Part shown: piece by piece, positions 5,292 through 62,374 of the stretch
How positions within the stretch are numbered: position 1 is the stretch's first letter
How the letters are laid out: each line of letters begins with the position of its first letter
Made by a program: the position numbers and the translations under genes
Source of the DNA: Reyranella sp.
GTDB taxonomy: Bacteria > Pseudomonadota > Alphaproteobacteria > Reyranellales > Reyranellaceae
Assembly (NCBI GenBank): GCA_022844015.1
Contig: JALHMO010000010.1
Location: forward strand, 1-64,000
DNA length: 64,000 nt
Reading direction: 5' to 3'
The notes under the pieces: generated by a model
Database searches by the model: none
What the model was told of the DNA's origin: nothing
Seen by the model: only the letters and a program-made list of their open reading frames with translations

Positions 5292-5564
5292 ATGTTGCGA
5301 GACGTCATTGAAGCAAAGGCCCTGAAAGGCCACCGCCTCGCCGTTACGTTCGACGATGGCGTCACAGGCGTGATCGAAGTTGCGATGATTGTTCCGTTCG
5401 AAGGAGTGTTCGCGCCCTTGCGTTCGGAAAGCGAGTTCGCCCGCGTGTTCGTTAATCGCGAGTTGGGGTCTGTATCATGGCCCTGCGGTGCCGATCTGGA
5501 CACGCAGGTGCTGTATGCGCGTGTTCGCGTCGACGAGGCCGGGACGAGCGCGCATAGGCGCTGA
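5292..5564 (+). CDS. DUF2442 domain protein
   Basis: A 90-residue protein, MLRDVIEAKALKGHRLAVTFDDGVTGVIEV..., matching DUF2442: an N-terminal strand pair with FDDG, a middle FAPLRSESEFARVFV, and LGSVSWPCGADLDTQVLY near the end. The start has an upstream GGA and lies 4 nt after the DUF4160 stop, so the two form a bicistron. DUF2442 proteins have been likened to the antitoxin-like partners of small basic proteins, but the role here is unproven. The last residues run into a repeat. Confidence 0.8.
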   Translation: MLRDVIEAKALKGHRLAVTFDDGVTGVIEVAMIVPFEGVFAPLRSESEFARVFVNRELGSVSWPCGADLDTQVLYARVRVDEAGTSAHRR

Positions 5565-5727
5565 CTTTACGTATCTCCTCCCCAGCGTCGCTGGGGAGGT
5601 GTCCGCGTCTTCGCGGACGGAGAGGTCAAGGGCACGGGTCTGGGGCTCATGACCCCTCCGTCGCCGTAAGACGGCGACACCTCCCCAGCGACGCTGGGGA
5701 GGAGATACGTAAAGTTAGCGCCCATGG
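5553..5727. repeat. Capped A-type nested palindrome
   Basis: Outer caps ATAGGCGCTGACTTTACGTA (5554-5573) and TACGTAAAGTTAGCGCC (5708-5724) are inverted copies. Inside lies an A unit (CTCCTCCCCAGCG...CGCTGGGGAGGAG), which itself contains the GGTCAAGGGC/GGCTCATGACC arms and smaller inner hairpins. The cap motif ATAGGCGCTAACTT recurs at 7855, 8036, 11153 and 62036, where it flanks a different inner unit. Confidence 0.85.
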
Positions 5728-60130: not shown

Positions 60131-61957
60131 ATGGCAAGGCGCAAGAAGACGGCAACCAAGAGCCCTCAGCGCGGAGGCCCCGGCGTCAAGACCGGCTCGT
60201 CGTCGGGGAAGGTGCCGGCCGCTCGCGCCACCGCCGCCGACTATTCCCGGCGTCGCGCCGAGGTCGACGAGCACGACCACAAGGAATTCCAGACCTACCT
60301 GGCGGACAAGAAGGAAGCCGACGAGCGCAAGGCCAAGGCCGTCGCCGTCGCCGAGCCGCCCAAGCGCGGCGGCATCAGCCGGCGCACCATGTTCAACGTC
60401 GCCGTGGGCACCGCCGCCGTCGCCGAGGCCGGCGTCATCGGCTACAAGGTGCTGGGCAGCGGCTCGGTGTCCGACCACGGCGTGCTCCACGGCGGCGCCA
60501 ACTACACCGAGGCGCAGCGCCACAACATCACGCGCGAGGTGGTCGACAGCCGCGCCGACCTGCGCGGCCAGAGCCTCGGTAAGTGGGTCGCGCTGCTGCC
60601 GACCAAGATGGGCGGCGGCACCTACGCCATCGACCTCAACTCCAACCGCGTGCTGGCCTCGATCTGGTACTGGAACTACGGCGACTACAACCCGATCAGC
60701 CATCATCTCTGCGCCTTCCCGAGCGCCGATCCGATGCACGGCTTCGAGTTCGTCAACAGCACGCAGGGTGGCCAGAACTCGCTGATCTACGGCATGCCGA
60801 CCGCCGTGACGGCCGAGACGGCCCCGGGTGGCACCAACATCTACCGCGTGCGCTTCGACGGCACGCAGATGCAACTGGTCGAGAACGTCTCGGAGACCAC
60901 CGGCCTGGGGCTCGGCGTGCACGTCACGGTCAACCCGAAGGACGCGCAATCCTACTTCGTGACCGACGGCCAGAAGGACATCGCTGCCTGCTTCGACCGC
61001 ACCACCTCCAAGGTCAAGGCCGCGCTGCGCTTCGACTGGGAGCCCAACGTGCGCGACCTTCGCGTTGCCTGGACCAAGGGCGGCACGATGACGATCAGGA
61101 AGATGTATCCCGACCCGCGCACCGGCCTGTTCGACTACCGCGGCACCAAGGGCAACAAGATCGACTGGGAGATGGTGCCGATGGGCGAGCTGTTCGTCGA
61201 GGAAGGCTCGCTGCCGGGCGACGATCCGCTGGCGCTGACCGGGGCCGACGGCACGATCTGGCATCCCGAGGGCCGCTGGGCCGCCACCGTGGTGCGGCTG
61301 TGCGGCGGCATCTGCATCCTCGATCCCGAGAAGAACTTCGATCCGGTGGCGTTCCTTCAGTTCAACAAGGATTCCCCCGGCCAGTACAAGGTCGAGCAGG
61401 TCGACAAGGACACCTGGAAGGTGGTGTTCGACAAGATCAACTCGCCAGGCCACGAGATCGGCTTCTCGCCCGACGGCAAGTTCCTCGTGATGATGAACAA
61501 TCTGCGCGAGAACAACTGCTCGATCTTTTCCTGCGCCGACCCCGATCCGCGCAACTGGCGCAAGATTGCCCATGTCGAGGACCCGCTGTGGCGCGGCAAG
61601 TATCCCAACCCTTTCCACATGGTGTTCTCGCTCGACAGCTCGAAGCTCTACCTGTCGATCCTGCATCCCTCGCCGGCGTTCAGCGGCATCATGGTGGTCG
61701 ACACCAAGACGTGGACGATCGCCAAGGAGATCCAGGGTATCGGTCCCGACCTGCAGACTCCCGCACTGACCTACGACGGCAAGTACGTGCTGACGCCGTT
61801 CAGCGGCTTCCAGCGACAGTCGAGCGGCATCGCCGTGATCGACACCTCGACCGACACGCTGATCGGTATCCTGCCGAGCAACGGCGGCCACCACGACTGC
61901 GTCATCATCCCGACCAAGCTCGAGCACATGAAGCATACGCGGTCGTGCACTTTGTGA
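60131..61957 (+). CDS. Tat-exported beta-propeller protein (NosZ / thiocyanate dehydrogenase-like)
   Basis: A 608-residue protein with a long lysine-rich N-region (~80 residues) before a twin-arginine signal ISRRTMFNVAVG near residues 82-93. The mature part is a beta-propeller with ISHHLCAFPSADPMHGFEF, GLGLGVHVTVNPKD, SPGHEIGFSPDGKF, PFHMVFSLD and GGHHDCVIIP. This set of spaced His residues is like the NosZ-related copper enzymes and thiocyanate dehydrogenase. The CuA domain of NosZ is absent. Copper binding and substrate are inferences. Start has GGGAGG 8-13 nt upstream. Confidence 0.6.
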   Translation: MARRKKTATKSPQRGGPGVKTGSSSGKVPAARATAADYSRRRAEVDEHDHKEFQTYLADKKEADERKAKAVAVAEPPKRGGISRRTMFNVAVGTAAVAEAGVIGYKVLGSGSVSDHGVLHGGANYTEAQRHNITREVVDSRADLRGQSLGKWVALLPTKMGGGTYAIDLNSNRVLASIWYWNYGDYNPISHHLCAFPSADPMHGFEFVNSTQGGQNSLIYGMPTAVTAETAPGGTNIYRVRFDGTQMQLVENVSETTGLGLGVHVTVNPKDAQSYFVTDGQKDIAACFDRTTSKVKAALRFDWEPNVRDLRVAWTKGGTMTIRKMYPDPRTGLFDYRGTKGNKIDWEMVPMGELFVEEGSLPGDDPLALTGADGTIWHPEGRWAATVVRLCGGICILDPEKNFDPVAFLQFNKDSPGQYKVEQVDKDTWKVVFDKINSPGHEIGFSPDGKFLVMMNNLRENNCSIFSCADPDPRNWRKIAHVEDPLWRGKYPNPFHMVFSLDSSKLYLSILHPSPAFSGIMVVDTKTWTIAKEIQGIGPDLQTPALTYDGKYVLTPFSGFQRQSSGIAVIDTSTDTLIGILPSNGGHHDCVIIPTKLEHMKHTRSCTL

Positions 61958-61964
61958 TGATCAT

Positions 61965-62366
61965 GCACCTCCCCAGCTTCGCTGGGGAGGTGGCCCGTAG
62001 GGCCGGAGGGGTCATGGCTGAGAGCGTGCCACTCATAGGCGCTAACTTTACCGAATACCTCACCCTGTGGAGCGGCCCGGAGGGCCGCGTTTCGAAGGGT
62101 TGGCAACAAATCGGGTGCTGCGACACCGGTTTCCCAACGATCTCGTTGTCGCCCATCCTTCGAGACGATCGCTACGCGACCTCCTCAGGATGAGGACTTT
62201 GCTGGGCCGGTCAAAGTTGGCGCCTATCAGCGCGCCACTCCCGTGGCGCTCATGGGACGTGCGTTTGATCAACGAGAGGGTGCGCCACAGGACTGGCGCG
62301 CTCCGGGGCCCTATGACCCCTCCGCCCAGTATGAAGGGGCACCTCCCCAGCGCAGCTGGGGAGGAT
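61965..62366. repeat. Three-level nested repeat: A halves around capped B and C units
   Basis: A-left CACCTCCCCAGCTTCGCTGGGGAGG (61966-61990) pairs with A-right CACCTCCCCAGCGCAGCTGGGGAGG (62340-62364) at the ends. Between them lie a capped B unit (caps CTCATAGGCGCTAACTTT at 62033 and AAAGTTGGCGCCTAT at 62212) with CCTCACCCTGTGG... / CCTCAGGATGAGG, then a C unit GCGCGCCACTCCCGTGGCGC (62228-62250) inverted near 62280-62305. It fills the whole gap and supplies GGGGAGGA upstream of the permease start. Confidence 0.85.
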
Positions 62367-62374
62367 GATTGACC

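Follow-up and report, generated by a model that had tools for sequence, protein, structure and literature searches.

The window analyzed here is a stretch of 64,000 nt from a Reyranella sp. contig (JALHMO010000010.1). Near its end, two genes of the plus strand, the left one ending at 61957 and the right one, encoding an ABC-type permease, starting at 62369 or 62375, are separated by a gap of approximately 400 nt (61966-62364). Read from left to right, this gap consists of one half of a palindromic unit A, a stump of a unit C, a unit B, the rest of C, and the other half of A (Table 1). The initial annotation had placed an A half, a capped B unit, a C unit, and the second A half between 61965 and 62366 and had described them as palindromes nested on three levels. 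This order is indeed present, and the nesting is genuine. However, B sits within C and C within A, and the levels are four rather than three: A encloses C, C encloses the TIR shell of B, and this shell encloses a second palindrome, the B core. Structure prediction, which had been proposed as a check, gave a strong fold for the gap as single-stranded DNA, with -132.8 kcal/mol compared to -81.3 ± 4.5 kcal/mol in shuffled sequences (z = -11.4). The nested arrangement of palindromes is far beyond chance.

Table 1. Positions of the repeat units in the gap and of a related arrangement elsewhere in the window
Feature	Position	Strand	Description
A unit, left half	61966..62016	+	terminal hairpin CCTCCCCAGC-TTC-GCTGGGGAGG, followed by inner hairpin GGCCCGTAGGGCC and, toward the center, GGAGGGGTCATG
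C unit, left stump ("cap")	62017..62033	+	
Target duplication, first copy	62023-62033		AGCGTGCCACT, in the left stump of C
B unit	62034..62228	+	195-nt MITE
B TIR, left	62034-62049		CATAGGCGCTAACTTT
B TIR, right	62213-62228		AAAGTTGGCGCCTATC
B core palindrome	62058..62195	+	CCTCACCCTGTGGAGC..CATCCTTCGAGACG..CCTCAGGATGAGG, within the B TIRs
Target duplication, second copy	62229..62239	+	AGCGCGCCACT, 10/11 identical to the first
C unit, right part	62229..62309	+	whole C an 80-87-nt palindrome, GCTGGGAGCGCGCCACTCC..GAGCGCCACAGGAGTGGCGCGCTCCCAGC
A unit, right half	62310..62364	+	CCTATGACCCCTCC.. inner hairpin ..CACCTCCCCAGC-GCA-GCTGGGGAGG
B-type ends around a whole A unit	5553..5726	+	CATAGGCG..CGCCCATG, target duplicate 9/11

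When B and one 11-nt duplicate were excised from the sequence, a canonical 87-nt C unit was left. Therefore, the "cap," previously taken for a separate module, is an arm of C that is present twice, having been doubled as the target site of B. The same gene pair also occurs in 29 further genomes of the genus, in which the left flanking gene shows 88-91% DNA identity. The two genes abut in all of these 29 orthologous loci, with a gap of 0 to 66 nt and typically with overlapping stop and start, and the element is absent from every one of them, indicating that it represents an insertion in this lineage. The 11-nt target duplication of B, the restoration of C upon excision, and the absence of the element from the 29 orthologues all support the earlier proposal that one element was repeatedly inserted into another. 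That proposal had also raised the matter of target duplications, which were found for B (11 nt) but not for A and C when offsets of -3 to +3 and lengths of 2 to 12 were scanned. Judging from the anatomy of the gap, an A unit would have been inserted between the two adjoining genes, a C unit, that is, a RAYT-type REP pair, would then have entered the center of A, and the B MITE would finally have been inserted in an arm of C, generating the 11-nt duplication. We consider it likely that mobile palindromes nested in one another make up the gap, formed by A, then C, then B, and that A, C, and the B core belong to three families, each with its own nuclease. The 11-nt duplications of the B MITE allow nested insertions to be dated clearly relative to one another.

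The genome from which the window comes (6.76 Mb in 240 contigs, 83% complete; hereafter the host genome) was searched for the units and, in addition, sampled in 40 stretches of 20 kb, picked regardless of repeat content. Each unit turned out to be a high-copy family in this genome. There were 411 first-look candidates for A and 229 for C, and the motif of the A center (CATGACCCCTCCGNCC) occurred 175 times, compared to 0 times for the reversed control. The composite used as a query gave 66 matches in the host genome, including one further full-length A[C[B]] (L002, 80% identity), and no homologous composite was found on plasmids. In the 864-kb sample of the host genome, the units were found singly and in various orders. 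Taken together, the loci examined showed single A and single C units, A[C], C[B], A[C[B]], B within the stem of A, and B ends around A. The palindrome of the B core was also found alone and around GIY-YIG genes. We resolved 68 A-type frames in the host genome and read their centers. Most were plain centers of 12 to 30 nt; nine contained C (in three of these, C with B), two contained D, which is another RAYT-type palindrome, and four contained remnants of DUF559 genes. A search for each unit alone and in combination had been suggested in the initial annotation as a test of whether the nest is one old element of fixed order; the free arrangements that it found disfavor this possibility.

According to such an explanation, the nest would be an old composite that was copied as a block instead of having arisen by serial insertion. 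The second full composite at L002 fits block copying, and the C[B] composites present at several loci may indeed have spread as blocks. However, every unit also occurs alone and in other orders, the A subtypes and the A-C junctions differ between the two A[C[B]] composites, and target duplications of B are found at many different sites. The free arrangements largely rule out block copying of a composite, which we regard as very unlikely. We give hardly any credence to the idea that the gap harbors a conserved regulatory RNA or terminator acting between the two genes. Its strong fold (z = -11.4) would suit such a function, but the sequence is missing from 29/29 orthologous loci, has no Rfam match, and consists of units that recur in many unrelated gaps. 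A regulatory RNA as the original function is ruled out by the lack of an Rfam match at the locus and by the absence from the orthologues; a local effect of the element on transcription is possible.

The B unit, the innermost layer of the serial insertions, is a MITE of approximately 190 nt (mostly 171 to 220 nt) with TIRs of 16 to 24 nt and without coding capacity. Its target duplication is exactly 11 nt long and is perfect in 14 of the 39 copies in the host genome. For these 39 copies, the identity between the flanks was 0.80 at 11 nt, compared to 0.46 in shuffled pairs, and was at or near background at other lengths from 6 to 15 nt. The TIRs and the fixed length of the duplication suggest that the B TIRs would be moved by a conventional transposase. 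No autonomous element or parent transposon with B ends was found when the sampled stretches were scanned over distances of up to 4.5 kb. About 7 of 16 B insertions in the 864-kb sample are located in stems of A or C units, while the recognizable A halves and C arm ends make up 0.6% of this sample, indicating that B prefers such stems. B ends occur almost exclusively in this species, since 68 sites were found in the host genome, 6 in the closest congener, and 0 or 1 in twelve others. They form a shell for different palindromes, as shown by the A unit that replaces the B core at 5553-5726. Like the bacterial MITEs Correia/NEMIS, ERIC, and RUP (PMC2229807), B has long TIRs, carries no gene, is present in many copies, and generates a target duplication of fixed length. 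It differs from them in the 11-nt size of this duplication, in having a second palindromic family within its TIRs, and in its frequent insertion in the stems of other palindromic repeats.

Some B copies (L005, L007, L008, and L013) harbor an extra insert of approximately 23 nt in one arm of the core, which then measures 161 to 163 nt instead of 139 nt. In L005 and L007, this insert is a hairpin (GGGCGAAGGTT.CTTCGCCCGAAT), and it is perhaps a fifth nested element. Another copy (L093:13342-13576) has flanks without an 11-nt duplicate (CGGCTCAGGCC / GGTCTCGACCA) and is possibly a recombinant of two copies.

An association matrix between repeats and nuclease genes was established for 41 Reyranella genomes, with arms being required on both sides of the gene. 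A or E arms were present at 33 of 36 DUF559 loci (host genome included), B or F arms at 26 of the 30 small GIY-YIG genes of the genus, and C or D arms at all 19 Y1 genes (8/19 C and 11/19 D), compared to 0 of 29 control loci and 7 of 1000 random windows; as the motif classes A to F were defined after inspection of the loci, this matrix shows specificity and does not constitute an independent discovery. No Y1 locus of the genus was flanked on either side by a complete pair of A or E arms. An inverted-arm test that is free of motifs agrees with the motif-based matrix. Of the units in the gap, the left arm of A is identical at 48 of 49 nt to the arm around a DUF559 gene at two congener loci (L161 and L190), the B core at 47 of 49 nt to a GIY-YIG arm in a congener (L276), and the C arm at 24 of 25 nt to one that flanks a Y1 transposase gene at another congener locus (L299). 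In the reading favored here, the A and C units and the core of B would be non-autonomous representatives of three repeat families, namely, those of DUF559, RAYT (HUH/Y1), and GIY-YIG, respectively.

DUF559 proteins are PD-(D/E)XK-like and Vsr-like, and the host genome has nine matches. Each of the seven small DUF559 genes or gene remnants in this genome lies inside a long palindrome, at its center, with arms of A type in three cases and of E type (CCTCTCC(C)) in four; only one small gene is intact. Within the genus, DUF559 falls into two clades that are separable by sequence and whose arms differ, even in one genome. The A centers agree with the DUF559 element at its two inner ends, with 13 to 18 of 20 positions matching. 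A thus keeps these inner ends, which fits derivatives formed by internal deletion. In the A hairpins, pairing is kept by compensatory changes at 7 of 46 pairs, indicating that the structure, rather than the exact sequence, is partly maintained.

Among 80 named DUF559 loci from Alpha-, Beta-, and Gammaproteobacteria, Planctomycetota, Nitrospirota, and other groups, 54 had tight inverted arms (an inverted pair with a score of 40 or more within 400 nt), compared to 0 of 236 control windows of the same loci, and clear arms were missing at about a third. Protein similarity and arm similarity were correlated in Mantel tests, with r = 0.41 across 72 loci, 0.69 for the 22 loci of the genus, and 0.43 for the 50 loci elsewhere, and 0 of 2000 permutations reached the observed r in each set. 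Host relatedness may contribute to the correlation outside the genus, and the association of genes with repeats could partly reflect it as well; yet the two DUF559 clades with unlike arms share a genome. The same Vsr-like PD-(D/E)XK family includes the Caulobacter DUF559 protein VsrA, for which a 2026 paper proposed a function in mismatch repair tied to cytosine methylation (PMC12907096). A term search of the text of that paper found no mention of palindromic repeats, and VsrA may represent a different branch with a distinct role.

GIY-YIG genes had tight arms (score of at least 36, the control maximum being 28) at 15 of 28 other alphaproteobacterial loci. Strict CGTC-type REPs, defined by a tag CGTC, TGTC, or CCTC, a stem of 8 to 9 bp starting with AT, a loop of 4 to 5, and a tail CCA, were located in inverted orientation on both sides of 6 of 29 GIY-YIG genes of the class, in six different alphaproteobacterial genomes. 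Such pairs numbered 0 in the DUF559, Y1, and control groups and 0/30 for the GIY-YIG genes of the genus. The loop of the B core is enlarged, and this core falls outside the strict CGTC REP consensus. In Alphaproteobacteria, Neisseria (dRS3), and Rickettsia (RPE-4/6), CGTC-tagged REPs are reported to have no dedicated transposase (PMC3733652), whereas the candidate partner here is a GIY-YIG nuclease.

C units are high-copy palindromes arranged in inverted pairs. In this respect, and in having arms that flank Y1_Tnp in congeners, C resembles the REPs and REPINs of RAYTs (REP-associated tyrosine transposases, IS200/IS605-like; PMC2817692 and PMC3116915), although, unlike RAYT-linked REPs, its consensus contains no GTAG tag at the hairpin foot. 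RAYT genes are flanked by two inverted REPs and coevolve with them (PMC2817692). A shares this layout, which is REPIN-like, and its gene is also located between two inverted, co-varying arms. However, A goes with DUF559 and the B core with GIY-YIG, and neither goes with a Y1 transposase. The statement that the units are not explained by simple REP elements thus applies to A, which is REPIN-like but has another nuclease, and not to C, which is of the RAYT/REP kind. No match to a Y1 gene (PF01797) was found in the host genome, the assembly of which is 83% complete, and C may be an orphan REP family in this genome or one whose gene is missing from the assembly. With no Y1 gene and one intact small DUF559 gene, the A and C families may now be inactive there. 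A RAYT as the mover of all layers was rejected, since the host genome is without Y1 and the Y1 loci of congeners have only C or D arms. The Caulobacter CIR repeats, which are CcrM-associated and approximately 110 bp long (as reviewed in PMC2229807), are likewise alphaproteobacterial intergenic repeats of comparable size that have two hairpin arms. No GANTC site, as in CIR repeats, is present anywhere in the element described here.

Palindromic intergenic repeats are abundant in proteobacteria and poorly explained. In the open PMC literature, we found no enzyme proposed for palindromic repeats other than the RAYT-linked REPs. From the association described above, we infer that the nucleases may mobilize their repeats, as proposed for RAYTs. 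Each nuclease would recognize and nick its cognate repeat hairpin, and repair or replication would subsequently copy gene-bearing units and, in trans, gene-less ones. We lean slightly toward the general reading that common bacterial palindromes are spread, in a RAYT-like manner, by dedicated nucleases that are not transposases, with DUF559 (Vsr-like) acting on the CCTCCCC/CCCTCTCCC type and small GIY-YIG proteins on the CGTC and B types, and that genomes would thus gather nested composites. Conversely, the DUF559 and GIY-YIG genes could be mere passengers, that is, selfish or defense nucleases that settle in palindromes, the loops of intergenic hairpins being safe or preferred targets, while the palindromes multiply otherwise. 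Palindromes do gather insertions here (C in A centers and B in A and C stems). However, the repeat types are specific to the nuclease families and hardly cross between them, the arms of the two DUF559 clades remain unlike within one genome, the arms co-vary with the protein sequence, and gene-less A units retain the inner ends of the gene-bearing element. The possibility of passengers appears weakened by this specificity and co-variation, and we consider it unlikely.

While the link between RAYTs and REPs is already known, we found no report tying DUF559/COG2852 or GIY-YIG to palindromic bacterial repeats in titles, abstracts, and term counts of the open PMC literature, subscription literature lying outside this search. 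A specific and co-varying link between repeats and genes names candidate enzymes and gives a role to two widespread families of small nucleases, and the relation between repeats and nucleases can now be tested by simple assays.

Several individual DUF559 loci showed additional features. In Sinorhizobium meliloti pSymB (L366, CP090106.1), a DUF559 gene annotated as "endonuclease domain-containing protein" lies between inverted arms of 114 nt, of the CCCTCTCCCC type, and adjoins an ISRm16 transposase. The clade 2 remnants at L080, L082, L084, and L086, located within E-type palindromes (CCTCTCCGCCCGCGTAGCGGGGGGAGAGG), are mostly decayed pieces of 80 to 190 nt. Finally, at L166, L169, L171, and L174, the DUF559 reading frame enters the palindrome, giving C-terminal tails that are translated repeat, e.g., DPSAPAGHLPI.
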